Shown one piece after another: positions 4,091 through 18,400 of a stretch of DNA of 22,911 nucleotides. The stretch spans positions 1-22,911 of IMG/VR virus record IMGVR_UViG_3300043773_000908; one strand, 5' to 3'. The notes below the pieces were generated by a model that made no database searches, was not told the DNA's origin, and saw only the letters and a list, made by a program, of their open reading frames with translations. The position numbers and the translations under genes were made by a program. Within the stretch, counting starts at the first letter, position 1. The number at the start of each line of letters is the position of its first letter. This DNA comes from a virus.

Positions 4091-4354
4091 ATGCAGACCA
4101 TCGAACTGACGGCAAGGCAGCACGAACTGCTTGACTTCATTGTGTCCTACCTATCCCAGCACGATGCCCAGCCCACCTATCGAGAGATGGGTGCGGCTCT
4201 GGGTATCGGCAACGTCAATGGCGTCGTCTGCCATATCAACTCCCTTGTCGAGAAGGGATACCTGAAGAGGCGGGCCAAGAACGTGTCGCGTTCGCTGTCG
4301 ATTGATTGGGATAAGTACCAGACCGTCACCGCAAAGAAGAAGAAGAAGCGATGA
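4091..4354 (+). CDS. LexA N-terminal-domain-like DNA-binding protein (no peptidase domain)
   Basis: An 87-residue protein preceded by AAGGAGG. It matches the LexA winged-helix domain from its start: LTARQHELLDFIVSYL, then QPTYREMGAALGI and the recognition region NGVVCHINSLVEKGYLKR, ending RSLSI. In LexA this domain is followed by an S24 autoprotease of about 120 residues with Ser/Lys catalytic residues; here the protein ends with a poly-lysine tail (TAKKKKKR) instead. It could be a repressor that cannot be cleaved, or an antagonist that occupies LexA-type operators (inference). Its last four bases overlap the next start (ATGA). Confidence 0.85.
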   Translation: MQTIELTARQHELLDFIVSYLSQHDAQPTYREMGAALGIGNVNGVVCHINSLVEKGYLKRRAKNVSRSLSIDWDKYQTVTAKKKKKR

Positions 4355-5087: not shown

Positions 5088-5966
5088 GTGCCTAAGTTCT
5101 TTGGATACTGCCGAGCCTCTACTGCCGGTCAGGAATACTCGATTGAGGCCCAGCAGAAAGCCATCACCCATGCCTATGAATCGAAGTACAAGCCTGAGGG
5201 GTACGAGTTCGGCGGCTTCTATGAGGACAAGGCTACGTCTGGCGGCAAGCCATTCACCGAACGAGAGAAAGGCCTAGCCCTTTGGATCGTTGCCCAGAAG
5301 GACGACGTAGTCTGCTGGTCCAAGATGGACCGGGCATTCCGTAACGTCCTTGATGCAGCCTCTCTCCTGCAAATGTTCCAGACCAAGGGGGTCTGCCTCC
5401 TGTCTCTGGACATTGCCCTCGATACCAACACGGCCCTCGGCAAGTTCGTCATGCACTTGCTTGCCTCAGTGGCCGAGATGGAACGGGAGTGGATCAAGGC
5501 CCGGACTCGGGATGCCTTGGCAATCCGGCAGGAGAAGGGGCTGCCTCATGGGGGCAGGCCACCGGCTGGCTGGTGGAAGGACAAGGCTGGCATCTGGAGG
5601 CCGGACGAGGCCGAGAGGAAGGTCATCGAGTGGGCCATCCTCCAGAACAACAAGGGTATGTCTTGGAAGAACATTGCCAGACTGCTCATCAAGAAGGGAA
5701 TCAATAGGGCCAATGGCCACAAGTATCACCAACCCTTCTTCCACTATGCCCTGAAGGCTAGGGCGGCAGGCTATCCCGGGAAGGATGGCTGGAAGGAGAA
5801 GTGTGCCTACGGCGGGTCGATCAGGCGTGAGAAGTGCAGGCCGTTCCGGCGGAAGATCAAGGCTGCTCTTCGACAGCAGACCTCAACTTGTCCAGATGGG
5901 ACTTCAGAATCTTCTTCGCAGTCCGAGGGTCCTTCCCGGACTGACGGCCAAACGCCCGGTAACTAG
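5088..5966 (+). CDS. Serine recombinase (resolvase/invertase family), shortened C-terminus
   Basis: A 292-residue protein with a GTG start and GAAGGAG upstream. The resolvase catalytic domain occupies about 3-145: nucleophile S11 in YCRASTAGQ, arginines R82 and R85 in SKMDRAFRN, and the long helix MEREWIKARTRDAL (about 131-144) that links to the DNA-binding part. A start of the 'recombinase' domain follows (GRPPAGWWKDKAGIWRPDEAERKVIEWAI, about 156-184). The zinc ribbon and coiled coil of large serine integrases (usually 450-700 residues) are missing, while it is longer than small resolvases (about 185). The last about 36 residues are Ser/Gln/Thr-rich and are encoded opposite the sigma-factor gene. 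Possible roles are invertase, resolvase or a decayed integrase. A tyrosine integrase is also present in this window. Confidence 0.88.
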   Translation: MPKFFGYCRASTAGQEYSIEAQQKAITHAYESKYKPEGYEFGGFYEDKATSGGKPFTEREKGLALWIVAQKDDVVCWSKMDRAFRNVLDAASLLQMFQTKGVCLLSLDIALDTNTALGKFVMHLLASVAEMEREWIKARTRDALAIRQEKGLPHGGRPPAGWWKDKAGIWRPDEAERKVIEWAILQNNKGMSWKNIARLLIKKGINRANGHKYHQPFFHYALKARAAGYPGKDGWKEKCAYGGSIRREKCRPFRRKIKAALRQQTSTCPDGTSESSSQSEGPSRTDGQTPGN

Positions 5967-6369
5967 CACCTTCAAAGACGTACTGCTCGATCCAATCTCT
6001 TTCCTCGTCGGTCAACTGGAGCAGGGCAGGGAGGGCCGACTCTCCCTGCTCTCGCTTCGGTGCCTGCCTCCTATGGATTTCCTCTAGGGGTATCCGCCTT
6101 ATGGAGTGGGCTTGGGTTTTTATTTCCTTCTGCACCTCTCTAAGCATGGCATTCTTGATGGCCACGGAGAAGTAGGCAGACACGCCGACGCCCCGTGTTG
6201 GGTCATACGTCTTGGCGGCACGGCAGCAGGCGTAATAGGCGGCACTCTCTAGGTCGCAGCACTCGGCCACCTGACGGATGCAGGGCATGGCCTTGAGGAA
6301 GGTCCTGACGCAAACAGGGACCAGCCTCATGGCTTCCTCGGCCACCGCCTGCTGCTCAGGGGTAAGCAT
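5857..6369 (-). CDS. RNA polymerase sigma factor of the sigma-70 superfamily, phage type
   Basis: A 170-residue protein. Residues about 38-82 fit sigma region 2 (DLESAAYYACCRAAKTYDPTRGVGVSAYFSVAIKNAMLREVQKE; compare the family pattern of an acidic start, YDPxRG and fSxYa...ixnaml+e). Residues about 117-163 fit a region-4-like helix-turn-helix (LTDEERDWIEQYVFEGASYRAFGRQ... RTAKKILKSHLDKL). It lacks region 1 and much of region 3, as in short alternative and phage sigma factors. It is the last gene of the long minus-strand run, directly after a TAG/ATG junction. It may drive later phage promoters, possibly the repeated element at 8583 and 10137 (inference). Its 3' end overlaps the convergent recombinase by 110 nt. 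Confidence 0.87.
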   Translation of the reverse strand: MLTPEQQAVAEEAMRLVPVCVRTFLKAMPCIRQVAECCDLESAAYYACCRAAKTYDPTRGVGVSAYFSVAIKNAMLREVQKEIKTQAHSIRRIPLEEIHRRQAPKREQGESALPALLQLTDEERDWIEQYVFEGASYRAFGRQSGKDPRTAKKILKSHLDKLRSAVEEQP

Positions 6370-6564
6370 CTACGGCACCCCGTACCGGATGAATACGTCT
6401 TCCCGAATCACCGTTCGGCAGGCCTTCTCATGGCAGTCCCGGCAACGCCAGTTCTCAGACACGACCCCGAAGGTATCGGTTCCGTACACCCCCGGACGCC
6501 CGCACTCATGGCAGGGCTGGGGCTTGCGGGGCTTCGGCTTCTTCTTGGGTTGCTGCCGGAACAT
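6370..6564 (-). CDS. Small zinc-ribbon protein
   Basis: A 64-residue protein with two CxxC knuckles, C18-x2-C21 and C41-x2-C44 (CHECG ... CRDCH), preceded by a basic Lys/Pro-rich N-terminus. This is a typical single zinc ribbon, likely binding nucleic acid or a protein partner. Its stop codon abuts the sigma-factor ATG, and GAGG lies just before its own start. No specific family. Confidence 0.65.
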   Translation of the reverse strand: MFRQQPKKKPKPRKPQPCHECGRPGVYGTDTFGVVSENWRCRDCHEKACRTVIREDVFIRYGVP

Positions 6565-6574
6565 GGACCTCAGG

Positions 6575-6940
6575 CTAATCGCCGGATGCCCATTTCGTCA
6601 GGGAAGTTTGGGCTCCCCTTTGCATGAAGGGGGGCTCTCTCTTTCTCTCTTCGCACCACTGCATGATCTTCTCTCGGGTCCGGTCTGGCTCGACCCCCAT
6701 GGCTTCGCAGCAATCCTCAAAGGTGACGAGACCTATACGTCCGTAGAACCAGTCTCTTGCTTGGGTTCGCTGCTTAAGAAGTTCCTTATCCATCCCGCCG
6801 CTACCTAGCATCTTTACTTTGGCACCCGGCTTGAAGAGTTTGCTGCTGGCCTCCACCCTTTGGACTGCCTGAAGCAGCACCCCAATGCAGAGAGACCGCC
6901 AGCCACCCTCGACAACTTCAGACTCAAGGCTGTCCAGCAT
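6575..6940 (-). CDS. Conserved phage-type hypothetical protein
   Basis: A 121-residue protein. GGAGG lies 6 nt before the ATG. The middle (about 61-95: ARDWFYGRIGLVTFEDCCEAMGVEPDRTREKIMQWCEE) resembles a widespread phage protein of unknown function with the pattern A..W..........F...C..LG.dp...R..I, which looks like a helix-turn-helix. A regulatory role is possible but not shown. It overlaps the preceding coiled-coil gene by 17 nt. Confidence 0.65.
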   Translation of the reverse strand: MLDSLESEVVEGGWRSLCIGVLLQAVQRVEASSKLFKPGAKVKMLGSGGMDKELLKQRTQARDWFYGRIGLVTFEDCCEAMGVEPDRTREKIMQWCEERKREPPFMQRGAQTSLTKWASGD

Positions 6941-7199
6941 TGACCGCCTCCAACTTGTTGGCCAGTTCCGCGTTCAGGATGTCCGCCTTGAGGAGTGCCT
7001 CCCGTGCCAGAGCCAGAGCGTTATTGGCTGCCTTCAGGTCCCGCTCCAGTTCCCACACCCGGCCCTTAAGGTTGATGGCCTCGACCCTGTAGTGGTCAGC
7101 CTGCATGGCGTGGCTGTTCGACAGGTCCATCCAAGAGTCCCGGCTCTCCCTGAGGGCGTCGACCTTTGCTTGCAGGCAGGGGATGCTGTCTTCAGTCAT
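6924..7199 (-). CDS. Small coiled-coil protein
   Basis: A 91-residue protein. The start at 7199 (MTEDS) is chosen over upstream starts at 7211 and 7214 because GAGG precedes it at good spacing and it overlaps the preceding stop by 8 nt. The whole protein fits one long amphipathic helix with regular hydrophobic heptads (LQAKVDALRESRDSWMDL, then NLKGRVWELERDLKAANNAL). No enzymatic motif. Probably a structural or partner-binding protein of unknown role. Confidence 0.6.
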   Translation of the reverse strand: MTEDSIPCLQAKVDALRESRDSWMDLSNSHAMQADHYRVEAINLKGRVWELERDLKAANNALALAREALLKADILNAELANKLEAVNAGQP

Positions 7200-7449
7200 C
7201 TCCCACCTCATCAAAGTGGCAAGCCATCATCAGGTTGGCGACTGCATGACCGAGATGGTCGTCGCTCCGGTCGCCTTCTAGGTAGTTGAAGATGTGGGCT
7301 AGGGCATGGTTGAGGACATGGCCGATGGGCATACCCTTCATCCAGTTGTGTTCCCCGTACCGCTCGGCCCCGTGACCCATTGCTTCAGCCGCCCGACGAG
7401 TCCCGGCTGTGGGCAGCAAGTCGTATCTTCCAGAGAGGGCGGATCGCAC
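7192..7449 (-). CDS. DUF5664-like (dATP/dGTP diphosphohydrolase N-terminal-like) protein
   Basis: 85 residues if the GTG at 7449 is the start. The sequence SGAVRSALSGRYDLLPTAG, then AMGHGAERYGEHNWMKGMP and HALAHIFNYLEGD..DDHLGHAVANLMM, follows the conserved pattern of the phage dATP/dGTP diphosphohydrolase-type domain (GxVR..... RYDLlP ... GA.kYG..NW..G.. .....H......G...D......HA..N), an all-alpha fold that would act on nucleotides. The similarity begins four residues before the GTG, but no other in-frame start exists nearby. The frame stays open upstream to 7869 across the whole resolvase-like gene, with shadow-like composition. AGGAG lies only 2 nt before the GTG. The true start is therefore uncertain. 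Confidence 0.65.
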   Translation of the reverse strand: MRSALSGRYDLLPTAGTRRAAEAMGHGAERYGEHNWMKGMPIGHVLNHALAHIFNYLEGDRSDDHLGHAVANLMMACHFDEVGDD

Positions 7450-7799
7450 GGCTCCTGAGGGGTAGGCATGGAGTCCACCATGTCCATCAGAACCATCAGG
7501 TCCTCCAGCCGGATGGTCAGAAGCCAGCCCGCCTTGCTGCGATTGGTCCTGTGGAATAGCAGCGGCGTCTTCTCTTGGGCCTGAGCCATTGCCTTCTGCA
7601 TGGCCTCCACCACGTTCAGCCTCTCCACCCTCTTCACTTCCGGGAATACCAGCGGTAGCCCCTCGATCACAACGTCCGCGTCCCCCGCATCCCCGCAATG
7701 CTGCTGGCTTCGCCTTGCTTCCCATCCGAATAGAGCCTTCAGTTCGTGGCACAGTTCCAGTTCCCCCTTCTTGCCTTTGGTCCTGCTGTTGATCGGCAT
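7338..7799 (-). CDS. PD-(D/E)XK nuclease, Holliday-junction-resolvase-like
   Basis: A 153-residue protein. The N-terminal 105 residues carry a PD-(D/E)XK core as in Hjc-type resolvases and related phage nucleases: GKKGELEL with E13, then ADVVI with D42, and PEVKR with E54-x-K56, followed by a helix and a strand (AMQKAMAQAQEKTPLLFHR). It would cleave branched or double-stranded DNA during phage recombination (family knowledge). The last 40 or so residues (from about 112) are Pro/Thr/Gly-rich and unlike the family; they overlap the next gene by 112 nt, so they may be dispensable or the product of an extended frame. A 56-nt gap separates the start from the HNH gene upstream. Confidence 0.75.
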   Translation of the reverse strand: MPINSRTKGKKGELELCHELKALFGWEARRSQQHCGDAGDADVVIEGLPLVFPEVKRVERLNVVEAMQKAMAQAQEKTPLLFHRTNRSKAGWLLTIRLEDLMVLMDMVDSMPTPQEPCDPPSLEDTTCCPQPGLVGRLKQWVTGPSGTGNTTG

Positions 7800-7855
7800 T
7801 GCCTTTACCCTCTGCTGCTAGGAGTTGCTTCCGTAGACACCGGAAGTGGAAAGCA

Positions 7856-8233
7856 TCACTTGCCTTCATTGATCTTTCTTTCTTCTAAGGCCCACTGAGG
7901 AAGGTCGGTTGGGTCCTCTCGTAGCCCGACTCGCCCCATGAGTTTTGCCAAGAACGGGATGTCAACCTCTCCGTCCTCGTCTTCCTTTGCCCTTAGGATT
8001 TGGCCTAGGGAAAGAGACTTCTGCCCGCCCGAGTGGTAGCCGTAGTGGCACTCGTTGCAGACCATGATGAGGTTGCGGTGGTGATGAGGGTCGTGCCCCC
8101 GCCGTCCGACAATGTGGTGAAGTTCGCACCGCTTCCCCGGCCTGAACTTCCTCCACCAGCAGACGGCACAACGGACGGAGTTGAAGGCATAGACCTCTAG
8201 GTTGGATCGGTTCCTGTCCTTCTTCTTGCTCAT
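7856..8233 (-). CDS. HNH endonuclease
   Basis: A 125-residue protein. The start at 8233 (MSKKKDRNR) overlaps the previous stop (ATGA); the longer in-frame reading from 8329 lies within the zinc-ribbon gene. It shows a classical zinc-stabilised HNH: C22-x2-C25, then H39-H40 (CELHHIVGR), N54 (HRNLIMVC), C59-x2-C62 and H63. HNH proteins of this size in phages are often linked to packaging or recombination, but no terminase lies next to it here. Catalytic residues look complete. Confidence 0.85.
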   Translation of the reverse strand: MSKKKDRNRSNLEVYAFNSVRCAVCWWRKFRPGKRCELHHIVGRRGHDPHHHRNLIMVCNECHYGYHSGGQKSLSLGQILRAKEDEDGEVDIPFLAKLMGRVGLREDPTDLPQWALEERKINEGK

Positions 8234-8424
8234 GCCTCTTCCTGCCACTGAAGTTTTGTGCCGCAGTCGGGGCACCAGCCAAACGAGCGGGCGATATTGG
8301 TTTTCCCGCAACTCGGGCAGCGATACCACTGGTCATACCACTCGTCGTATCCCGTGTTCTGCGGCCCTCCGATACACACAAAGCCAGCGGGGGATGGAAT
8401 GGACTGCTCGTCTTCGTCACTCAT
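8230..8424 (-). CDS. Small zinc-ribbon protein
   Basis: A 64-residue protein with C36-x2-C39 and C51-x2-C54 (CPSCG ... CPDCG), a rubredoxin-like zinc ribbon, preceded by an acidic N-terminus and a Tyr/Trp-rich stretch. AGGAG lies 6 nt before the ATG. It overlaps the HNH start by 4 nt. The partner is unknown. Confidence 0.65.
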   Translation of the reverse strand: MSDEDEQSIPSPAGFVCIGGPQNTGYDEWYDQWYRCPSCGKTNIARSFGWCPDCGTKLQWQEEA

Positions 8425-8449
8425 GCGCCGCTCCTGATCCTTGTCGTTC

Positions 8450-8548
8450 TCATGGTGTCCCCAAACTCATGGCGCACACAGGGCGGTCGGTCAACGTCGT
8501 TCCGCTCCTGCTATCGAATGCTCTCCGATTGCTCGGCATATTGACCAT
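8450..8548 (-). CDS. Possible 32-residue leader peptide in a 189-bp gap
   Basis: A short frame (MVNMPSNRRAF...) runs from 8548 to a stop at 8450 that overlaps a 10-codon frame beginning MRTTR. That one ends in an ATGA overlap with the zinc-ribbon gene. The chain of stop/start overlaps is suggestive of translation coupling, but the ribosome-binding site of the first frame is weak and the peptides have no features. Low confidence; the gap may simply be a 5' untranslated leader below the element at 8583-8614. Confidence 0.2.
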   Translation of the reverse strand: MVNMPSNRRAFDSRSGTTLTDRPVCAMSLGTP

Positions 8549-8582
8549 CGAATCAACACCCTGAGAACCACGCGATGCTTTC

Positions 8583-8614
8583 GTTGTAAACCCCGTGTCA
8601 AGTCTGTGTATCTT
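8583..8614 (-). promoter_or_regulatory. 32-bp repeated element, copy A (putative promoter/operator)
   Basis: Read on the minus strand it is AAGATACACAGA, one pyrimidine, TTGACA, six variable bases, then TTACAAC. Copy B at 10137-10168 matches at 26 of 32 positions, with all spacings equal. Copy A begins on the last base of the stop codon of the metallopeptidase gene and is followed by about 160 bp without a clear gene before the zinc ribbon. TTGACA equals a sigma-70 -35 box, but no good -10 box lies 16-18 bp downstream, so a phage sigma or activator site, or an operator, is possible. Confidence 0.55.
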
Positions 8615-9306
8615 TACTTCTTCAGCATCTCTTCGGTGGCAAGGGCTATGTCTTCGGGGCCTGCCAGATAACGGACCCGCTTGGAGTGCCACTCAATGAA
8701 GTTGTTCAGGTCGTCGATGCCTTGATACTCAGGGTCCTTGGCAGCAAGCCGAGCCATGTATCGGACGTAGACTTCCATCTCCAAGGCAAACCGGACCGTG
8801 TCAATCCGGTCTTTCCCCGTCTTGTTCAAAGACTTCCGACAAGCCGTACCATTGCCATAGGCGACCCATTCATCGAGGAGGTAGAGCGGCCTGTCGTCCC
8901 ACCACTGGCGTTGCTTGACGAGGTAGGTGTCATAGATGGTGCGGCGGTCATGCTCGGGGATGTAGTCAGCGATCTGCTTGAGGGTCAGGTCGGGCTGCTC
9001 CAGCAGGACGGCTCTGCCTTCAGTCAGGTAGAACCCGGGCCTGCCATGCTCCTCGCCCACCCTTGAGTTCAGGTAGTGGGTTCCTTCGTGGACCCAAGTG
9101 ACCAAGTCTTCGTCCCGGCAGGGATGCTTGTGTGGCAGCCGGGACTCGATGTCCACGACCATGGTGGATTCGTGGCTGAACTGCTTGGTTGTGGTCAGTT
9201 CCACCCACTTCAAGCCGTCTGCCCTAGCCATAGGCGGGTCGTTAGAGATGCCTACTTGTCGGCACCCCATCACGAACACCGCCATGGCTAAGACTGCTGG
9301 ACGCAT
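8614..9306 (-). CDS. Predicted lipoprotein metallopeptidase (HEGTH)
   Basis: A 230-residue protein. The N-terminus (MRPAVLAMAVFVMGCRQVG) has a basic residue, a hydrophobic stretch and a lipobox VMGC, so C15 would be lipidated after export. A zinc-protease motif H73-E74-G75-T76-H77 lies in LVTWVHEGTHYLNSR. E146 in LLDEWVAYGNG is a plausible third zinc ligand, giving a gluzincin-like H-H-E set. Its presence in a phage replication region is unusual. Possible roles are a morphon that alters the lysogen's cell surface, superinfection exclusion, or cell-wall modification; these are inferences. A 5-bp inverted repeat lies just upstream (9308-9324). The start has no close Shine-Dalgarno sequence. Confidence 0.75.
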   Translation of the reverse strand: MRPAVLAMAVFVMGCRQVGISNDPPMARADGLKWVELTTTKQFSHESTMVVDIESRLPHKHPCRDEDLVTWVHEGTHYLNSRVGEEHGRPGFYLTEGRAVLLEQPDLTLKQIADYIPEHDRRTIYDTYLVKQRQWWDDRPLYLLDEWVAYGNGTACRKSLNKTGKDRIDTVRFALEMEVYVRYMARLAAKDPEYQGIDDLNNFIEWHSKRVRYLAGPEDIALATEEMLKK

Positions 9307-9307
9307 A

Positions 9308-9324
9308 CAGGGTTTATGTCCCTG
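9308..9324 (-). repeat. Small inverted repeat in front of the metallopeptidase start
   Basis: CAGGG and CCCTG arms are separated by 7 bases and end 2 nt before the ATG at 9306. The only purine-rich patch upstream (AGGG) is inside the far arm, so folding could hide the ribosome-binding region. Short, so possibly by chance. Confidence 0.3.
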
Positions 9325-9342
9325 CCTTCGTCCAGTGATGCA

Positions 9343-9690
9343 CTAAAAGGGTTCGATCTCCCTCTCCTGCTTATGGGACTGCCACTTAAGCCAGCCATTG
9401 TTGTCCAGATAGGAACCGTCCTTGCCCTTCTTCTTCGGGAACAGACTTCCATCTGCCCTCTTCTGACCAAAGGCAAGGGATGCCCCACAGTCTTGGCACC
9501 TCATCTCGTAATAGGTGTTCCCATCATGTTCACGGACAAGGGGGATAGTCCTCTGGGAATCACAGGCACCACAGACTGAGTTGCCGAACACCTCAGTCGA
9601 GGATGCCACTTGGGCAAAGCAGTCCTTGGTGTCCTTGCCCTCCACCTCAACCTCAAACCGACCGTCAGCCGACTTCATCCGAACCTTCAT
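9343..9690 (-). CDS. Zinc-finger-containing phage protein, function unknown
   Basis: 115 residues from ATG at 9690. This start has GGGAGG at ideal spacing; an upstream in-frame TTG at 9744 would add a Pro/Glu-rich segment without a ribosome-binding site. Residues 40-43 (CGAC) and 65-68 (CQDC) form a zinc ribbon, followed by FGQKRADGSLFPKKKGKDGSYLDNNGWLKW. The arrangement (VFG...CG.C......VR..DGN.YYE.RC.DC......G....GSLFPK) resembles a conserved phage protein often found near recombination genes. Likely nucleic-acid binding (inference). It follows the 460-bp hairpin-rich gap. Confidence 0.7.
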   Translation of the reverse strand: MKVRMKSADGRFEVEVEGKDTKDCFAQVASSTEVFGNSVCGACDSQRTIPLVREHDGNTYYEMRCQDCGASLAFGQKRADGSLFPKKKGKDGSYLDNNGWLKWQSHKQEREIEPF

Positions 9691-10136
9691 CTGACCCTCC
9701 CGGGATTGCTCTGGCTCTGGCTCTGGCACTGAAAAGTCCGTCAAGAAAAAAGAGGGACAACCCCTTTTCTCTAAGCCGAGAGGTGAAGCATTGGCCTTTC
9801 TTAAGGGTCAAGCCCATCCGGCAAGCGGTGTCGTCTCTCCCTCAGGCTCGCCAGCAAGGTTCGTTATGCTGGGTTGAAGCCGTCTGGTCTTTCCCACCGC
9901 TGGGTCACAGTCTTTGGCAACAGGGCCTGTATGGGATGTATGACCGTCATCCCGTGACTCCGTGGTGGGGCTGGCCTGCCACTGCTAACAGGGCCACCAC
10001 GAAGGCTTCGTCGCTGGAATGAGAGGGGCGTATCGAGTCGGGGTAATCCCCGATTTCTCTTGTGACCCTAGTGACGGTTGCCCGTGCTATTGGCCCGCAC
10101 CGCCCGGCGTTTCCCTCTGATTCCTCCGTCAGTTCG
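9691..10136. other. Non-coding, hairpin-rich gap (possible structured RNA or leader)
   Basis: No convincing gene lies here on either strand; a plus-strand frame running to 10022 is Trp/Pro/Ser-rich and lacks coding character. Inverted repeats include a 7-bp stem (9962-9968 with 9994-10000, followed after a 2x2 mismatch by 3 more pairs), GGGATG with CATCCC (9933-9938 and 9948-9953), and a perfect 6-bp stem with TAAT loop (10038-10053). Copy B of the repeated element sits at its upstream (right) end, and an imperfect hairpin plus T-run at its downstream end. Near 9709-9727 CTCTGG repeats three times, in the start region of the next gene. Confidence 0.4.
9745..9772 (-). terminator. Weak intrinsic terminator-like hairpin
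   Basis: On the minus strand AAAAGGG and CCCTCTTTT form an imperfect stem (one A:C mismatch) with a GTTGT loop, and a T-rich run TTTTCTT overlaps and follows it. It could end a short transcript from the element at 10137-10168 before the zinc-finger gene. The stem has only three G:C pairs, so the call is weak. Confidence 0.3.
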
Positions 10137-10168
10137 GTTGTAATGGCGATGTCAAATCTGTGTATCTT
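10137..10168 (-). promoter_or_regulatory. 32-bp repeated element, copy B (putative promoter/operator)
   Basis: Same layout as copy A on the minus strand: AAGATACACAGA, T, TTGACA, six variable bases, TTACAAC. The first half encodes the last residues of the nuclease gene (QDTQI and stop), so the element and the gene end overlap. Followed by about 440 bp without a gene. The identical position at a gene end, ahead of a gap, argues that it works in the minus direction. Confidence 0.55.
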
Positions 10169-10637
10169 GACATTTAGCGGGGCCCAAGCAGGGCGTCAGC
10201 CTCTTTGCCAGTTCCGACATCGGCTTTAGTTTTTCTCTTGGGATGTAGTGGCTAACAATCCCACGGCCAAAGTCTTTTGTGGGGGCCTGCTTGAGAGTTG
10301 AGCCCCACTCCCAGCCAACAAGCCGTGCGTTGTTGCCACTGTCGTCGGTCTGGGCCAAGACGTAGATGTCGCAAAACTCTTTGCCGACTTCGTGCAAAAG
10401 GTTGAACGCCTTCTCGGCCGTCTTGACATCGACGGTGAACACAAGGGGCAAGTGAAAGTCCACGCCGCCATCGCCAGTTGGACGCTCGCTAAGGTCTGGC
10501 ATGATTCCCGTTAAGCGGCCAAATGCAAACTCGCCCGCAAGCCCTATGGTTTCGTAGTTGGGAGACAGTGGGCGAGAAGAAGCATGGTTCTTGTGAAGTT
10601 CGTGGCGACGTTCTGCAACCTTGATGATTTGGTTCAT
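10152..10637 (-). CDS. PD-(D/E)XK-type nuclease
   Basis: 161 residues from ATG at 10637, which overlaps the helicase stop (ATGA); a longer in-frame reading lies inside the helicase. Core motif: E36 in GLAGEFAFG, D60 in GDGGVDF, and D70-x-K72 in FTVDVKT, followed by helix and strand (DIYVLAQTD). This is the pattern of restriction-endonuclease-like phage nucleases. It is coupled to the SF2 helicase, so the pair may process DNA ends or branched DNA together (inference). The C-terminal end lies within regulatory element B. Confidence 0.75.
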   Translation of the reverse strand: MNQIIKVAERRHELHKNHASSRPLSPNYETIGLAGEFAFGRLTGIMPDLSERPTGDGGVDFHLPLVFTVDVKTAEKAFNLLHEVGKEFCDIYVLAQTDDSGNNARLVGWEWGSTLKQAPTKDFGRGIVSHYIPREKLKPMSELAKRLTPCLGPAKCQDTQI

Positions 10638-12208
10638 GCCCCGTACCTCTTCATCTCTTGCCGCCGCTCCAGTTCCTGCTGGTACACACGGAACCAGAAG
10701 GGCGTGAGCCGTGCCTTCTCGATTGCCCATTCCAGATAGGAGTCGGGAATGAGGGGTGAGTTCAGGGGATAGCCCTTCCACTTCCCAAAGATGGCCCGGT
10801 AGGTGCGGACGTTGGGCCGCTTGGCCGTGGCCGGATCGAACAGGTCACGCTGCCGGGAGTCGAAGGTGACGCCCACGATGAGTTCAGCACGACGCTTCTT
10901 CTCGGCCTCCTTGGCCAGCCGCTCCATCTCCTTATGGGCCTCGATCTCCTCGGCCAGATCGGCGTCCAGTTCCTCGATGGTGGCTGGCTCCTCGTCGTCC
11001 TGCTGGTCTTCCTTGATCTTGTCGATGATCTCCTTGGGCCCAGCCAGAAGAACGTCGATTGCCACGATGGGCTGGTGAAACTCACAGGTATTCGTGATGT
11101 CGTGGATCACGAAGTCCGGCTTGGCCGAGGCGGCAATGGCTGCCTTCCTCTCCTCAAGGGTCATGGCGTTGGCCAGCACCCCGCCCAGAGTCCTGAGCCC
11201 ACGGCCGATGGCTTGGAGGTAGCGGGCCTTGGACTTGGTCGGACGGGCGTTGAAGATTTCGTTGATCTCTGGGATGTCCACGCCTCTACCTAGGACGTTG
11301 CAGTTCACGATCAGGGAGTTCTCCCCTGACTTGAACTTCTTGATCTCGTCGTTCCGCTCGTCCTCGTTCTGGGTGCCCCACACACAACTCACCTTCTTGC
11401 CGTGGCGGGTGACCAGCAAATCCCTAAGGGCCTTGGCCTGAAGGACGCTGGCACAGAACACCACCCCATGGCTCCGCTTGTGGTGCTGGTTCACCAAGGC
11501 GGCGATGTCATGCAGGCACTGCTCCTTGGTGAGCAGGGCGTCGAGTTCGGCAGGGGAGAAGTCCGTCTTGGTCTTGGACAGGGACGAGAAGTCCACTGAC
11601 TTGACCCGATGGACGTAGACCTTGGGCCGGACCAGCCAGTGCTGATCCAGTGCGTCTCTCAACTCAAGGCAGAAGGGAACGTCCTCGTAGAAACCGAAGA
11701 GGGCGGACTCGTTCTTGCCTCCCCGGAATGGTGTCGCGGTTACACCAAGGACTCTTGCCCCATTGGCAATGAAGTCCTGCATCATGTCGCGGAACTTCTT
11801 TGAGAACTTGTCATCGCACTCATCAACAATCACTAGGTCGATCTTGCCCAAAAACTTTTTGTATCGACCCTCTGCGATGAGGCTCGCATAGCAGGCTACT
11901 GCCCAATCCTCTCCGTCCCACCTCAGGCTTGCCTGCTCCAGCCCAGCGACACGACGACGCAGGGCACGGATGGTGTCAGAGGTCTGACGTACCAACTCGA
12001 TCTGTGGGCAGATGACAAGGACCCTCGCCCCATCCCGAGGCAAGACGGTAAACAACCTCGTTTTCCCCATGCCCGTGGGCAAGACTGCCATCACGGCCTT
12101 GTGCCCACGGGCGAAGGAGGAACGAATCTTCAAGATGCCTTCCCTTTGGTACGGCCTGAGTTGGTCGTCAAAGAGTGGCAGATGTTCTTCAGCGTATGAC
12201 CTTGGCAT
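10634..12208 (-). CDS. SF2 DEAD/DEAH-type DNA helicase
   Basis: 524 residues from ATG at 12208, which has GGAGG upstream at good spacing and overlaps the csrA gene by 20 nt; the in-frame extension to 12391 runs through csrA and is a shadow. Motifs: LRPYQ (18-22), Walker A LPTGMGKTR (43-51), DECD (129-132), TATP (157-160), motif V region GRGVDIPE (307-314) and motif VI QAIGRGLR (332-339). It belongs with UvsW/RadD-type phage helicases, which use ATP to unwind branched DNA in replication and recombination. A long acidic helical insert (about 410-460, DDEEPATIEELDADLAEEIEAHKEME) precedes the C-terminal region. Confidence 0.93.
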   Translation of the reverse strand: MPRSYAEEHLPLFDDQLRPYQREGILKIRSSFARGHKAVMAVLPTGMGKTRLFTVLPRDGARVLVICPQIELVRQTSDTIRALRRRVAGLEQASLRWDGEDWAVACYASLIAEGRYKKFLGKIDLVIVDECDDKFSKKFRDMMQDFIANGARVLGVTATPFRGGKNESALFGFYEDVPFCLELRDALDQHWLVRPKVYVHRVKSVDFSSLSKTKTDFSPAELDALLTKEQCLHDIAALVNQHHKRSHGVVFCASVLQAKALRDLLVTRHGKKVSCVWGTQNEDERNDEIKKFKSGENSLIVNCNVLGRGVDIPEINEIFNARPTKSKARYLQAIGRGLRTLGGVLANAMTLEERKAAIAASAKPDFVIHDITNTCEFHQPIVAIDVLLAGPKEIIDKIKEDQQDDEEPATIEELDADLAEEIEAHKEMERLAKEAEKKRRAELIVGVTFDSRQRDLFDPATAKRPNVRTYRAIFGKWKGYPLNSPLIPDSYLEWAIEKARLTPFWFRVYQQELERRQEMKRYGA

Positions 12209-12401
12209 CCCGTGCCCTCCAGCCTGCTTCGTCCCTGTAAAGCAGTTCCTCTCGGATAACTTCAACGGTCTTGGGTGCCTCGATTGCCAGACGGACAACC
12301 CGTCCCGGACCAATCCCCTGCACCACGATCTTGCAACTCGTCCCGTCCGGCATCCGCAGGACGATGGACTGTTCAGGTCTTCTTGTGACACACAAAGCCA
12401 T
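12189..12401 (-). CDS. csrA: CsrA-family RNA-binding translational regulator
   Basis: A 70-residue protein. It follows the CsrA pattern from end to end: ALCVTRRPEQSIVL (strand 1), then a strand KIVVQGI, GRVVRLAIEAPKTVEVIREELL. L3 and R50 correspond to the RNA-binding Leu4 and Arg44 of E. coli CsrA, and the core IEAPK..V.REE is intact. CsrA dimers bind GGA-containing loops near ribosome-binding sites and block or activate translation. GGGAGGG lies before its own start. Here it could regulate phage messages or redirect host carbon metabolism and motility (inference). The middle has a 2-3 residue insertion (MPDGTSC) relative to the bacterial proteins. Confidence 0.85.
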   Translation of the reverse strand: MALCVTRRPEQSIVLRMPDGTSCKIVVQGIGPGRVVRLAIEAPKTVEVIREELLYRDEAGWRARDAKVIR

Positions 12402-12760
12402 CAGCCGGTCCCTCCCATAGACCTAAGGGTTTTGGAAAAAGCCTCACCGAGGGTCTCGGGCCTCGATAGGTAACGACCCACCCATCTCCGGCTCGCTACT
12501 TCGTGCGGCCACCCCTCCTTGATCCTGTCCCTTTCGGCGGCGATTTCTTCCTCCGACGGGTCGCTCTTGCTCGGCCCCCCGTGCGGCCTCACCACCTTGG
12601 CCAGCATCTGCCTGATCTCTGATTGGCTCACCAGACTGCTGTACTTCATCCGCAGGGCCCAGATGCTGGCCCCTGCCAGATACTCGCTCACTATCCGCTC
12701 CATCAGTTCGGTGCCCCTCTCCTTGATCTCGGGCACCATCTCTTTGTTGGGGGCGATCAT
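12401..12760 (-). CDS. Hypothetical protein with HTH-like segment
   Basis: A 119-residue protein with no recognised family. Residues about 19-56 (LMERIVSEYLAGASIWALRMKYSSLVSQSEIRQMLAKV) look like a helix-turn-helix. A charged helix follows (EEEIAAERDRIKEGWPHEVASRRWVGRY), a pattern that occurs in other phage and bacterial small DNA-binding proteins. TAGGAACAG precedes the ATG. Its stop overlaps the csrA start by one base. It is fully protein-like, unlike the second frame that runs across it. Confidence 0.65.
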   Translation of the reverse strand: MIAPNKEMVPEIKERGTELMERIVSEYLAGASIWALRMKYSSLVSQSEIRQMLAKVVRPHGGPSKSDPSEEEIAAERDRIKEGWPHEVASRRWVGRYLSRPETLGEAFSKTLRSMGGTG

Positions 12761-12932
12761 CTGTTCCTATTCCTTCAAGAAAGTTGTTGACCTTTGAATC
12801 GAGGGTCGCCTTGACCAATCGAAGTTCTGAAAACAACACGGGGATCGCTCTCGACAGGATCAGTGGCAACTGGTCCATGGTTGAGAACACGATCAGCCTC
12901 TCCAGTTCGTCGATCTGCTCGTCACTTAGCAC
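12444..12932 (-). CDS. Small helical protein whose frame runs on across the next gene
   Basis: The frame starts with GTG at 12932, with GGAGG/AAGG upstream and an 11-nt overlap with the ERF gene, and is 162 residues long. Only the first 55 or so residues look like a real protein (LSDEQIDELERLIVFSTMDQLPLILSRAIPVLFSELRLVKATLDSKVNNFLEG: helical, hydrophobic, acidic). The rest is Arg/Gly/Gln/Glu-rich, lies inside the next gene in another frame, and looks like a shadow reading. Either the natural stop was lost, or a frameshift joins it to the next frame. Unknown function. Confidence 0.4.
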   Translation of the reverse strand: MLSDEQIDELERLIVFSTMDQLPLILSRAIPVLFSELRLVKATLDSKVNNFLEGIGTDDRPQQRDGARDQGEGHRTDGADSERVSGRGQHLGPADEVQQSGEPIRDQADAGQGGEAARGAEQERPVGGRNRRRKGQDQGGVAARSSEPEMGGSLPIEARDPR

Positions 12933-13596
12933 TGGCCTTCTCCTCCGGGACGGGGTACTGCTCCTTCAGCCACTCGGCATCGGACTCACGCATATCCCCG
13001 TCAGTCACCAACTGATCGAGGCGAGCGTGGTACTCGGCCAACTTGGATGGCTTCTTGGCAACCAGCCGCAGGGCAGCCTCGGCCTTGGCCTTGATGGCGG
13101 CGAACCGCTGGGACTCCTCGTCAATCTCCTGCACTTGCTCGGAGACCTTGGCCGCGTCCTGCTCCTCAACCTCGTCGCCCTCTGCCCATCCCCCGGCAAG
13201 GGTCAGGAGCAGAGTCTTCTTGGCGTAGGTGCAGCCGATCTCAAACGACTGCGGGTCAATCCGCTGGCCATGACCGTCGATGGAATCCCTGATCGGACAG
13301 GTCGAGGTAACCCATTCCCCGGACTCGCCGTGGCAAAGGGTGCCCACCATGACCCAGCCATCTGGAGTCCTGCTGATACGCGGCAGGAACACCAATCCAT
13401 TGGCATTCAGGGACGGGTACAGGGCTTCGCAGATGTCCTTCCAAGTCGAATACCAATAGGACTTGGCATCGCTGATCCTGTACTGCTCTGACTTGGCGAC
13501 AGGCTTGTAGCCAGCCTGTGCCTTGCACAAAGCCTGAATCAACTGCCCGATCTCGGGGCTACTACTGCACCCAACGTGGTGCGAATCCAGCATCAT
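12922..13596 (-). CDS. erf: ERF-family single-strand annealing protein
   Basis: 224 residues from the first of two adjacent ATGs at 13596, with GGAGG upstream; the longer reading lies inside the exonuclease end. The core matches ERF recombinases: LIQALCKAQAGYKPVAKSEQ, YWYSTWKDICEALYPSLNANGLVFLP, a GWVMVGTLCHGESGEWVTST strand pair, PQSFEIGCTYAKKTLLLTLAGGWAEGDE. The C-terminal tail is acidic and Lys-rich. In phages ERF anneals complementary single strands produced by a partner exonuclease; the exonuclease is the gene just upstream, overlapping by 35 nt. The pair forms a lambda-Red-like recombination module. Confidence 0.88.
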   Translation of the reverse strand: MMLDSHHVGCSSSPEIGQLIQALCKAQAGYKPVAKSEQYRISDAKSYWYSTWKDICEALYPSLNANGLVFLPRISRTPDGWVMVGTLCHGESGEWVTSTCPIRDSIDGHGQRIDPQSFEIGCTYAKKTLLLTLAGGWAEGDEVEEQDAAKVSEQVQEIDEESQRFAAIKAKAEAALRLVAKKPSKLAEYHARLDQLVTDGDMRESDAEWLKEQYPVPEEKASAK

Positions 13597-14584
13597 TGCT
13601 TGCCTCCATGTATCTCTCCGGGACATACAGTTCGGTCACCTGCCCGGAGTCCTCAGGTGTCCAAAGGTCCAACTCCAACCGGGCCTGAAGTTCCGCAATG
13701 GTGTTGCGGACTTCGGCCTTGGCCTTGCGGATGTGCCTTGCCGGAAGAGTCACGGCATGGCAGGCGTATGGGGCTACAGTGCTAGTGACCAAGAACACGA
13801 ACTGGTCAGCACGGAACCCGGCAGCCTCAAGCCCCATGAGGTAGAGGACTTGCTGGAACCCATAGCCGTAATCGACTACTGATTTCCAGAAGGTGTCTAA
13901 GGGCTTGGCTTCTCTGGTGGTCTTGATGTCCCAGATGCAGGAGTCTGTGACGGCGTCAGGCCTGCACTTCAACTTCAGGCCCGATGAGTCGATCCACCTG
14001 ATCGACACTTCCCGTGCAATCGTCTGCTCGGTCAGTTGCCTGAAGGCATCGTTCTCAAGGATGGCCCTGAACTGTGCCCGGTAGGCGTCTTCTTCATCAG
14101 ACTTGAGGAAGATCGCATTAGGCTTGGCCGACAGAGTCTCGGCCTCAAACTCGGCAGTGGCCTTCGTCCTTCTGCCACCAGCCCCTAGTGCGGACTCGGG
14201 GATCGTGACTACCCGAGACCACCACTCAACATTCCCGACCTCTGCCCATTCGTGGACATAGGTTCCCTTTCTCAGGGCCTCGCTGTCCCCGTACAGTTGG
14301 GGGGTGCCGAAGTAGCGGCTACGGAATGCTGCTGGCCCCTGACTCTGGAGCGTCCAGAGTTGGGACTTCGACCACCACTCCCTGTCGGAGTGGTAGGAAG
14401 TGATCGGTTCGTCGTGTTGAACGAGACCAGAAGTAGCGGCGGCCGGACTTGAACCGGCGACACCCGGCTTATGAAGCCGGTTGCCCACCCCATCGGAAGT
14501 ACCCGGCTCGGGCGGGTTGATGGGGGGGGTGTGCCAACTATTTTGGTCTCGTTCTGCATGAGCCGCAGAACGGAGCGTTTCCAT
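13562..14584 (-). CDS. PD-(D/E)XK (RecB/Cas4-like) exonuclease; start uncertain, frame contains the tRNA-like attP
   Basis: 340 residues from ATG at 14584, or 308 from GTG at 14488. Catalytic pattern (numbered from 14584): H111 (KGTYVHEWA), D210 (KCRPDAV), D219-x-K221 (CIWDIKTT), then the helix motif YGYGFQQVLYL (240-250), as in phage exonuclease VIII / PDDEXK-1-type enzymes. It would digest DNA ends for the ERF partner. The conserved part begins near residue 62 (TSYHSDREWWSKSQL), and no ATG, GTG or TTG lies between it and the tRNA-like block. The residues in between (VGNRLHKPGVAGSSPAAATS) are a translated tRNA. Any canonical start is therefore beyond the attachment core. Confidence 0.82.
   Translation of the reverse strand: METLRSAAHAERDQNSWHTPPINPPEPGTSDGVGNRLHKPGVAGSSPAAATSGLVQHDEPITSYHSDREWWSKSQLWTLQSQGPAAFRSRYFGTPQLYGDSEALRKGTYVHEWAEVGNVEWWSRVVTIPESALGAGGRRTKATAEFEAETLSAKPNAIFLKSDEEDAYRAQFRAILENDAFRQLTEQTIAREVSIRWIDSSGLKLKCRPDAVTDSCIWDIKTTREAKPLDTFWKSVVDYGYGFQQVLYLMGLEAAGFRADQFVFLVTSTVAPYACHAVTLPARHIRKAKAEVRNTIAELQARLELDLWTPEDSGQVTELYVPERYMEASNDAGFAPRWVQ
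14419..14554. repeat. Inverted repeat flanking the putative attP
   Basis: GAACGAGACCA at 14419-14429 is the exact reverse complement of TGGTCTCGTTC at 14544-14554. The 11-bp arms are 114 bp apart and lie either side of the tRNA-like core. This layout is what integrase arm-type or accessory-protein sites look like, but arm sites are usually also directly repeated; no third copy is seen. Confidence 0.5.
14434..14480 (-). other. Putative phage attachment site (attP) identical in form to the 3' half of a tRNA-Met(CAT)
   Basis: Read on the minus strand: anticodon arm 14480-14464 (CCGGC / TTCATAA / GCCGG, anticodon CAT), a 5-base variable region, T arm 14458-14442 (GCCGG / TTCAAGT / CCGGC), then CGCCGCT and discriminator A at 14434. 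There is no matching AGCGGCG acceptor strand and no D arm upstream, and no CCA follows, so it is not a complete tRNA. An integrase gene starts 102 bp away. Tyrosine integrases commonly use the anticodon-to-3'-end part of tRNA genes, so this should restore the host tRNA after integration. Confidence 0.78.
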
Positions 14585-15401
14585 GGTTAACCTAGCAATC
14601 TCCTATTGCGACGAGAGAGAAGTCACCCGTGATTACCGGCAGGCTTTGCTGCGTGTCGCCCGCTCAATGGAGGCGGCAGGCATCACTCCTTCGATGCTGA
14701 CAGAATCCTTGGTGAATCAGTGGCTGTTGAGCCTGCCGCAGTCGGCAACAACGAAAAGCAACTATCGGCGGATGGCCAAAAGTCTGCTTCGATTTGCTGC
14801 CGAACGCGGACTGATCGAGGGCCAGTATAGCGGTCGCATTGTGCGAGTCAAACCACGCATGGCACCGCCGGTTGCATGGTCCATGGCCGAGTTGTCCACG
14901 CTGATTTCTGCTGCCAAGCAGATGCAGGGGACCCTGAGAAACGGGTGTCCCGAGTCGCTGTATTTTGAGGCATGGATCAGGGCCGGGTTTGAGACGGGCC
15001 TCCGCTTTTCCGACCTACTGACCATGAAGTGTTCGTGCCTGCGGGGAGACCGACTGTATGTGGTCGCCAACAAAACGGGAGTCCCGATTCCGAAGGTCCT
15101 GTCCGCCCGCTGTGTGCAGATTCTCACGGAACTAAGTGTCTACTCGGGAGGGGTGGAGTTCTTCCGTCCGATCCTGTCGGAGCGGTGGCTGCGGATACGG
15201 TTCGCCCGCCTGTGCAAGTCAGCGGGACTGAACGGAACACCCAAGTGGCTTAGAAGAAGCGGGGCCACACACTGCGAGATCAGGCAGCCCGGGTCAGCCA
15301 AGCGATTCCTCGGGCACCTGTCTGATGGTTTGGCCCTCAAGCATTATGTGGATCAGACCCTGCTGCCCGACCAGTGCCCAGCCCCTCCACCAATCCCTTA
15401 G
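14583..15401 (+). CDS. int: Tyrosine recombinase / phage integrase
   Basis: A 272-residue protein with GGAG 7 nt before the ATG. A SAM-like core-binding domain (about 1-90) is followed by the catalytic domain: R141 (TGLRFSDLL), K164 (ANKTG), box II K221-W-L-R224 (TPKWLRRSGATH; the usual first His is Lys here), H245 (LGHLSD) and the nucleophile Y255 (LKHYVD). It is shorter than lambda integrase and lacks an obvious N-terminal arm-binding domain. It would recombine attP with the host tRNA gene. The ATG lies in CCATGG, which is also a possible start for the divergent exonuclease; its stop overlaps the stop of the convergent virion gene by 3 nt. Confidence 0.9.
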   Translation: MVNLAISYCDEREVTRDYRQALLRVARSMEAAGITPSMLTESLVNQWLLSLPQSATTKSNYRRMAKSLLRFAAERGLIEGQYSGRIVRVKPRMAPPVAWSMAELSTLISAAKQMQGTLRNGCPESLYFEAWIRAGFETGLRFSDLLTMKCSCLRGDRLYVVANKTGVPIPKVLSARCVQILTELSVYSGGVEFFRPILSERWLRIRFARLCKSAGLNGTPKWLRRSGATHCEIRQPGSAKRFLGHLSDGLALKHYVDQTLLPDQCPAPPPIP

Positions 15402-18400
15402 TAGTTCATGGGGTTGTAGACATCGGGCTTCACCTTGGACATCTGCCTTCGCTCTTTCCGTAGTTGCCTATCCAGCAAGTACATCTTCTGGGTTTCCTCG
15501 TCCACGAAAGGCAGCATCTCTGCGGGAATGTAGGTGGACTCGTAACTACGGGTGGCGGGATGGGCGTCGAGCAACTCCTTGATGGTCTCAAGGGCGTCTC
15601 TCTGCTTCTCGGCATCGTCAATGTTCTCGATCTTCACCCCAGCCGTGGCGTTGATGAGGTTTTGTAGCAGGGCCGCCTGAGGGTCTTGGATTCTCGGGTC
15701 CGTGCCCTTCCTCGCCGCCTGCATAGTCCGGCTGTAGAACGGCATAAGGAACTGCAACGCTTGGTCCACGCCCCCAAGCCGAGACATGGTGTCGTAGTTC
15801 TCGTTGGGGTCGAGCAGTCCAAGCCGCTCTGCCAGCACGGGCATGGTATTGCGGGCGTAGTTCTTCTTCAGGCCGGTGTATGAGTCCTGCCCTGTGCCAG
15901 CCTCGTAGGCCATCTTGATGAGCGGGTGCGACCCTTCAGCGAAACTGCCGATGGTGTGCCCCAGCGAGGACGCCAACTTGATCTTCCCCTCGGAGTCGGT
16001 CTTGACCTTGATCTGATTGATCTGGTCAATGCCCGGGAGATCGAAGTCGGAAGCCCACGAAGAGATGCCAGTGGTCTGGGGTGCGACGGCGTCAACGATT
16101 CCGCCCAGCCCCGGAATCTTTCGGATCGGCTCCAGTGACAGGCCGTACTTGTCGGAGATGCGTCGAGGAACGTAGTCAGACTGAGTGTCGTTTTCCGACA
16201 GCCTCTTGGGCAGCCTGAGCCCGAGTTGGGTGTACGCCCCACCCGGCTTCTCCGCGATCTTGGTCAGCACCCACTTGGATATGCGGGATTGGTACGCCCA
16301 GAAGGGCAGCATATTCCGCATGAACCCACGCTCAAACTTGGTCAGAGAGTTGTAGTCAACGTGGGCAGCCATGATCCTTTTGGCTGCTTCCTCGGGGGAG
16401 ATGCCTTGGAGTAGGAGCCCGTTGTACCCGGCAATGCGGTTGATCTTGTCGGTCGTGTCCCCAAGTCTGGCCGACCACCTGAGGATCGGATTGGTCGTCT
16501 CGGTGGGCTTGATCCCCTTGATGGTGTTCCAGTAGCCCGTAAGCCCCTGAGAAATATTGCTGGGGAGTTTCATGGGATTCAGGGTGCTGCCGAGCCCGAG
16601 CAACTCACGCTCCGGCAAGTACCTCATCGAGGCACTCTTGTCCATCAGTTTGCTGCCAGAGATGGTGTCCCAAATCTGGTAGCCAAGCGTGGTTTCGGGG
16701 GCAGCCCCGGCCATCAGTTCGCTGCGAAGACCCTGACTCGTCTGCCTGCTGGTCACCGAGGTCCCGATGTCGTCCAGTTGCCTGCCCCTTGAAATGCCTT
16801 GGGCGGCAAGGTCATCGAGGTAGGCAGACAGCCTCTCTTCTGGCGTGGCGTACCTCATGTACCGGGGCATCCGGTTCACGATGCGGATGAGTTCGCCCTC
16901 TTGCCCATGCAGTAGATGCTTGGCCCCTGAGTATCCAGCCATCAGGTCGTTGAGATTTCCGACCTCGATGGTATTGGAGAACATCCCTGAATACCAATCC
17001 CTCACGAACCTAGCGGGCCAACTTAAGACACTGGCTTTCCACATAGACGTTACCGCGTCCAGAGTCTTGAAGAGTTGGCTTTGGACTTCAGGTACTTGGT
17101 AGTAGTCGGCTACTCGGTTCAGTCTCTGGAGCAGGCGTCCGTCTACGGCAACTCCGTTCAGTGCGTCGTATCCGGCATTGGCGAACTCGGGGATGCCGTT
17201 CTTGATCCCAATGTCCCGCAGGCGATCCAGCACGTTCTGCTTGGCACCCTCGGTCAGCGGCACTCCGGCAGGCAGCGGCCCCATGAAATCCCGCCGGTCG
17301 GTGGACTTCAGGCCCAGTGCATTCAGGACATCCGGCAAGTCATTGGCTTTTCCGCCAACTGCATGGGCAGCCCCTGAGTACCAGCCCGCCTGCGGAGAAG
17401 ACTCCATGGCCGAACTGGCGATCATGTTGGTCAGGGTGCCAGCCCGACGAATGGACTTCTCCCTGCCAAGGATGTACTTGTTGATCGCCTCGGTGGGGTG
17501 CATCCCAAAGATGGGCAGGCCCTTATCCACCGACTCCTTAGAGGTCTTGTGCAGGGTGCGGGCAAGGGCCAGTGCCTGCTGCCGGTTGTAGGTGACCGGG
17601 TTCCCGTTGTTGTCTACGGGCAGGCGACCAGCCCTAGATAGTTCTGCTTCTTTGCGGGCGGTCTGCTGAAGAATGTAGTTGGCGGCTGCGTCATCCGTGG
17701 CGGCGAGCCGTTCTGGCCCAGACACCATGCGGTCAAGGCTTAGTTCTTGAAGGGTCTTGGTCCCGCCCGGGACATGGAACGACGCCTCTCGGGCCATCTG
17801 GTCCCCGGTCATCACCGAGAACGTCCGGCCTCCAGTGGGTGCTTGGTTGGACCCACCGAAGGTCATGTCGTCCAGAACGCGGGGGAAGTACCCGTGCCCG
17901 AACTTGTCGGCCAGTTCGTCTGCCCCGATGCCAGCCTGCCTGCTACGGGCAAGGTAGTCCCGGGACATCTCTTGCCACCTGTCCACGAACTCGCCAATCC
18001 GGGCAGCATCACCAGTGGCGGTTCCGGCCCGGTAGTCCGTCAGGGCCCTGAGGACTTCGTCGTGGGCAACAAGGTCGTCGCCTCTAAGTGTCGGCCCTAC
18101 TTCTTCGATGACGTTGCGGATGGCACTGCCAAGCCGGATGTCTTGGGTTGCGTCTTGGAATCTCGGGAGGATGTCAATGAGTTGGCGAGACCTTCTTCTG
18201 GCCACTGCCTCGGCTGCGTCGTCTCCTCGGGACAGAGCCAAGGTGGCTACCTGACTTCCGGCGTCCGGTGCCCCGTGCAGTGGCTTGGAGACCATTGCGG
18301 CTGCCCGGGTTCCCACCGGAGACCAGCGGGCCCAAGAGCCAAACCTGTCCAACTGCTTGGCCATCGTCCCGCCACCGGGAAGGTTGATGCCAAGGCCAAA

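Follow-up and report, generated by a model that had tools for sequence, protein, structure and literature searches.

A phage attachment site within the reading frame of a predicted RecE-type exonuclease points to a gene switch coupled to integration

The 3' half of a tRNA-Met gene, 47 bp long, is embedded in frame in an exonuclease gene, beside a divergently oriented integrase gene, in a 22.9-kb linear virus record from IMG/VR (the whole stretch analysed, which is called the window below). We consider it likely that integration strips the start codon, the leader and probably also the promoter from the operon that this exonuclease opens, and that excision restores them. Four observations carry the proposal, all read directly from the sequences of the metagenome contigs and MAGs compared: the embedding itself, the identity of the host attachment site, the conservation of the layout over different tRNA targets and reading frames, and a natural attL in which the gene is left without a start.

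Gene organisation of the window

The exonuclease gene (13562..14584, minus strand, 340 aa) is the first of a minus-strand operon. Its end is overlapped by the start of a gene for an ERF single-strand annealing protein (12922..13626, minus strand, identified by Pfam and PHROG searches). The remainder of the operon (5857..12932, minus strand) contains a CsrA-like regulator (12189-12401, minus strand, identified by PHROG), which sits within the recombination operon, a DEAD/ResIII helicase (about 12256 to 10634, minus strand) and further small genes. Divergent from the exonuclease, on the plus strand, is a tyrosine integrase gene (14583..15401), recognised as an integrase by PHROG and with Pfam PF00589 below the cut-off. 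In the integrase profile (A1) the catalytic residues R141, R224/R225 and Y255 are invariant, and H245 is nearly so.

Some other genes of the window may be mentioned here. A small LexA-type DNA-binding protein (4091-4354, plus strand), annotated by PHROG as a transcriptional repressor, is a candidate for the phage repressor. There is a second recombinase besides the tyrosine integrase, of the serine resolvase/invertase type (5088-5966, plus strand, 292 aa). A protein of 1274 aa (15398-19222, minus strand), which adjoins the integrase in the relatives L006 and L007 too, has no match in Pfam or PHROG, and a distant blastn search with the integrase-exonuclease region of the window found no match among GenBank phages.

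The exonuclease reading frame matches Pfam DUF3799/PDDEXK_1 and PHROG exonuclease VIII. It is similar to the RecE nuclease of E. coli (PDB 3h4r) both by sequence (E 1.7e-28) and by fold (Foldseek, E 7e-12, TM 0.81 by target length), and the catalytic D...DxK residues (D210, D219 and K221) are invariant in 26 sequences. On this evidence the protein is predicted to be a RecE-type PD-(D/E)XK nuclease. An AlphaFold2 model based on 26 full-length sequences has pLDDT mostly above 90 in the exonuclease domain and below 50 in residues 1-49, which correspond to the leader and the core, except for two single residues. Relatives of the exonuclease in other planctomycete elements usually have their own ATG 10-20 aa before the YH motif. 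Since these relatives start near the YH motif, the N-terminal tail is an addition of this phage group.

The attachment core and the exonuclease start

The common core of attP lies at 14434..14480 on the minus strand, and corresponds to tRNA-Met(CAT) from the anticodon arm to position 73. Its 47 nt read CCGGCTTCATAAGCCGGGTGTCGCCGGTTCAAGTCCGGCCGCCGCTA on the minus strand, and are translated in the exonuclease frame as RLHKPGVAGSSPAAA. It is preceded by a leader (14481..14584, minus strand), which runs from the ATG at 14584, or alternatively the GTG at 14488, up to the core, and is followed by a linker (14396..14433, minus strand) to the conserved domain at the YH motif, with no in-frame ATG, GTG or TTG. 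These two codons, both upstream of the core, are the only in-frame starts ahead of the nuclease domain; the next one after GTG 14488 sits 131 codons into the domain. An earlier note on this DNA had claimed that the tRNA-Met-like core is read within the exonuclease frame, and that no start codon lies between it and the conserved part of the enzyme, and both statements hold.

The tetranucleotide CATG at 14582-14585 holds both the ATG of the integrase (14583) and that of the exonuclease (14584), and the latter is therefore no independent evidence for a start. Its Shine-Dalgarno match is weak, and the ATG of the window with the best Shine-Dalgarno sequence is out of the exonuclease frame. The evidence for a translation start upstream of the core thus comes from the relatives rather than from the ATG at 14584. 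The core stands outside the integrase gene, 102 bp ahead of its ATG.

Related phages

Relatives were gathered by a scan of viral contigs for the core and by searches with integrase and exonuclease profiles, which together yielded 36 non-redundant integrase/exonuclease junctions. A tRNA 3' half is present in 29 of these (the window and 28 others), and in every one of the 29 the core is part of the exonuclease ORF and is preceded by an in-frame start. The leader codons of these junctions contain no stops in the exonuclease frame (0/807), whereas stops make up 22/806 and 37/799 of the codons of the other two frames, a result that is partly built in because the starts were chosen within the open frame. 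A less biased measure takes, whatever its frame, the ATG that forms the best anti-Shine-Dalgarno duplex; this ATG falls in the exonuclease frame in 23 of the 29 junctions; all such counts overstate independence, since the junctions are related to each other. Clean combinations of Shine-Dalgarno sequence and ATG stand upstream of the core in several junctions, among them L166 (AAGGAGAGATACATG) and L010 (GGGAGGATAACGATG).

The core is derived from tRNA-Met in 19 junctions, tRNA-Val in five, tRNA-His in four and tRNA-Gly in one, and across the junctions cores are read in all three frames. The Met core is translated as FISRVSPVQV in L010 and L168, and is read in the same frame in L134, while the sisters L154 and L172 have their Val core in different frames despite close exonucleases. 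Mapped on the exonuclease tree, the types and frames of the core call for seven changes or more, and the leader and linker of the relatives contain in-frame indels. With so many core types and frames, and always an upstream start, the core peptide itself is irrelevant, and what matters is the continuity of the frame from an upstream start. No other argument weighs as heavily against a start past the core. The relatives, with the core in three different frames, thus agree at the sequence level with the start upstream of the core on which the earlier note had relied.

Other junctions have a different arrangement. In L116 the tRNA 5' half is inside the exonuclease gene, and likewise in L123, where it is reversed. 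In L161 and L175 the tRNA 5' half is outside the exonuclease, in a small membrane-protein-like ORF ahead of it, so that it would be the leading gene of the operon, and not the exonuclease, that is split. The junctions of L115, L145 and L177 contain no recognisable tRNA piece. An exonuclease start downstream of a tRNA 3' core was found in none of L161, L175, L115, L145 and L177. One further candidate, L004, was dropped as a chance match to the leader.

The host attachment site

The core was looked for in 84,980 species genomes and turned up in 33 contigs. In 32 of these it forms the 3' half of a complete tRNA-Met gene, identical over the 47 bp. The contigs carrying it are nearly all Planctomycetota MAGs, many of lake origin according to their titles, and 30 of the 32 core-carrying genomes searched belong to one family. 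The attB site evidently lies inside the tRNA-Met gene of freshwater Planctomycetota, and the possibility raised in the earlier note, that attB might be outside any tRNA gene, does not agree with these MAGs. Of the other types of core, the His type is found in the tRNA-His gene of 21 genomes of the order, ten of which were inspected and have no exonuclease behind the tRNA-His. The Val type was not found in 297 genomes of the order.

The integrated state

A natural attL is present in contig C271 of the MAG G038 (L097), in which the host tRNA-Met directly abuts the exonuclease frame. Homology to the attB regions of sister genomes (86% to L040 and 87% to L054) ends at the 3' end of the tRNA. The exonuclease frame is intact over 309 codons and is closed upstream by a TAG within the tRNA; reading on from the core, one first meets a start codon, a GTG, after 163 codons. 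The suggestion that after integration the exonuclease would follow a host tRNA and lose its start is thus seen realised in this contig. A rebuilt tRNA at attL, together with an attB inside a tRNA gene, is what is found with a tyrosine integrase that uses tRNA genes. The comparison of attachment sites that had been proposed could be made in part: the attL of a relative is there, and its attR is absent from the assembly. Searches with the exonuclease for further attL sites, in a phylum sample (392 genomes) and in the host family (72 genomes), gave only G038.

Directly 3' of the tRNA in this contig, inside the exonuclease frame, there is a GC-rich hairpin of 16 bp (-38 kcal/mol), possibly a terminator or an RNA-processing signal.

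In addition, attL sequences were built in silico with Met and His hosts (n=22). The TAG closes the exonuclease frame in all 22, and in 15 of them, the window included, no start is left before the domain. In the modelled attL of the window, 148 of the 279 domain residues remain. The other seven retain a GTG or TTG before the domain, with no obvious Shine-Dalgarno sequence.

The one remaining contig of the 33 with the core, L030 (contig C205 of G003), lacks the tRNA 5' half; its core is flanked on one side by an integrase and on the other by host DNA. It is the only attR seen, and appears to be the attR of a more distant relative, its integrase being more distant also. It contains two tandem integrases of the window-integrase family. 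Upstream of the core there is a TTG with GAGGAG, which could start a short peptide running through the core into host DNA.

The promoter-like site and the start hairpin

Within the integrase gene, and directed at the exonuclease, there is a promoter-like site of the form TTGACT-16-TATACT (14824..14851, minus strand). It is kept at the same place (-266/-269 from the integrase start) in nine relatives, with a TTGA-type -35, a -10 of the form (T/G)A-N-N-N-T and a spacing of 16 nt, although the encoded amino acids differ. Sites of the TTGAC type are also found upstream of the core in most of the other core types. In the 8.8 kb of the operon there is no sigma-70-like site of this form, compared with 2.1 expected from shuffled sequences. 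By its match to the consensus, the site is thus a candidate for the promoter of the operon, and is on the same side of attP as the integrase. Given that it is kept upstream and that none is present in the operon, integration probably parts the whole exonuclease-ERF-helicase operon, and not only its first gene, from the promoter. The loss of the promoter on integration, which the earlier note had also claimed, therefore becomes probable, on the basis of a conserved promoter-like site on the far side of the core.

Just past the exonuclease start of the window is an inverted repeat, CGTTCTGC-N7-GCAGAACG (14550..14572). A hairpin of about 7-11 bp is found just after the exonuclease start in most relatives of the tRNA-Met type (L010, L021, L101, L102, L106, L107, L166 and others). 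Its sequence varies and its pairing is kept (CGTTCTGC/GCAGAACG, GTCAGGGT/ACCCTGAC, CTCTCCTGC/GCAGGGGAG and CCCTTTCCG/CGGAAAGGG). It is not evident in phages of the His and Val types. This hairpin could be an operator, a site for a directionality factor or an mRNA structure.

Alternative explanations

That the tRNA-like sequence is a chance overlap of ORFs, or an artefact of assembly, has next to no probability. Spurious ORFs that cross the 3' end of a tRNA typically yield peptides of the VAGSSPA kind, which counts for a chance overlap, but this explanation is refuted by the 28 other junctions, with four tRNAs and three frames, and by the attL in a host genome. We also regard as very improbable that the exonuclease is translated from a non-canonical start (ATT, ATC, CTG or CTC) past the core, the alternative offered in the earlier note, by which integration would have no translational effect. 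It is true that in most junctions the domain begins 13-20 codons past the T arm of the core, near the start of the relatives. However, a Shine-Dalgarno sequence with ATG stands upstream of the core in many relatives, whichever frame crosses it, the leaders are free of stops, and the indels in leader and linker are in frame. Because such upstream starts exist, and because continuity is restored after each change of frame, a start after the core is disfavoured.

Two further explanations accept the layout and dispute its role. The crossover site may simply happen to lie at the integrase/exonuclease junction, with the exonuclease extended through it as a matter of compaction and not of regulation; loss of the gene on integration would then cost nothing, because a conventional repressor already silences the operon. 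Phage genomes are compact, the LexA-type HTH protein at 4091-4354, a transcriptional repressor by PHROG, could repress the operon, and a disordered tail would accept any core peptide. Against this, over at least seven changes of core type or frame the start is never downstream of the core in the 29 junctions, when one new ATG would suffice and exonuclease relatives in other elements start at an ATG shortly before the domain, and the promoter-like site is on the far side as well. We think this explanation somewhat unlikely. It is distinctly unlikely, in our view, that integration hands the operon over to the host, the tRNA-Met promoter giving low constant transcription and hence ERF and helicase without exonuclease. 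The tRNA and the operon are indeed adjacent and co-directional in attL, ERF and helicase keep their own starts, and read-through from a strong tRNA promoter could transcribe both, but the 16-bp hairpin (-38 kcal/mol) after the tRNA in the natural attL could end such transcripts.

Comparison with known systems

In the integration-dependent immunity of mycobacteriophages of the BPs type, attP is located in the repressor gene, and integration removes a 3' ssrA-like degradation tag so that the protein becomes active (PMC4557955; also PMC9934374). As in those phages, the attP core of the window is inside a phage ORF beside a tyrosine integrase. In BPs, integration changes the product and so couples the state of the DNA to the decision between lysis and lysogeny. 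Here, by contrast, the gene that is split encodes a RecE-type exonuclease and not a repressor, and it is the 5' end, with the start codon and the promoter-like site, that is removed, rather than a C-terminal tag, and one would expect this to leave the gene off. In its logic the proposed switch mirrors that of the mycobacteriophages.

Integration of Tn916 separates its replication and transfer genes from their promoter (PMC9956884). In Tn916 the promoter and these genes are on opposite sides of the recombination site, and only the excised circle joins the two; the phage would have the same arrangement if the promoter-like site is indeed the promoter of its operon. Unlike Tn916, which is a conjugative transposon, the element here is a phage, the cut also deprives the first gene of its start codon, and the target is a tRNA gene, with a TAG that closes the frame.

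The suicidal archaeal integrases of the SSV type have the recombination target in the integrase gene, so that the integrase splits itself (PMC8371274). There too the target is within a coding sequence and a gene of the element itself is split, whereas in the window the integrase is left intact, and it is the adjoining nuclease gene that is divided. The present case thus shares a principle with the BPs, Tn916 and SSV systems, and lacks the defining feature of the BPs and SSV types. Compared with RecE/exonuclease VIII modules, it has the same nuclease domain and fold, the invariant D-DxK and an annealing protein (ERF) next to it, but in place of the short N-terminus usual there it has a disordered tail, with residues encoded by the tRNA. 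In the open-access literature searched, no account turned up of an attP located within an exonuclease gene, or an early-operon gene, of a phage.

Proposed mechanism and significance

Our preferred reading is that the operon is switched by integration and excision. The window would be a temperate phage of freshwater Planctomycetota, with its attP core forming part of the 5' coding sequence of the exonuclease gene. In the free phage, transcription would start from the promoter on the integrase side, probably the promoter-like site described above, and translation from the ATG upstream of the core; the product would be a RecE-type exonuclease whose disordered N-terminal tail contains the peptide encoded by the tRNA. 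The integrase would recombine attP with the host tRNA-Met, so that the tRNA is rebuilt at attL with the exonuclease frame directly behind it, and the start codon, leader and promoter-like site remain at attR with the integrase. Translation of the exonuclease at attL would then be impossible, because the tRNA has a TAG in its frame and offers no start, and lysogens would be expected to lack the enzyme. The exonuclease-ERF-helicase operon would at the same time lose its phage promoter, which may silence ERF and helicase in the lysogen too. Excision would rejoin both parts.

Selection may maintain this layout as a switch. We hold with somewhat less than even confidence the stronger proposal, that this recombination and replication operon is shut down chiefly by integration and not by a repressor, through the loss of its start codon and promoter, and that selection has kept attP in the first gene of the operon while the tRNA target and the frame of the core changed.

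A possible reason is that active RecE/ERF would be hazardous to a host that carries the prophage, and a gene that is unreadable while integrated would be leak-proof. If this is true, it would represent a third class of switch coupled to integration, beside attP in a repressor gene and the separation of an operon from its promoter, with a recombination nuclease as its target. A tRNA half inside an ORF beside an integrase provides a signature by which other such switches may be searched for. It also follows that a start-less exonuclease behind a tRNA gene should be annotated with caution, as it can be the functional state of a prophage and not a pseudogene.
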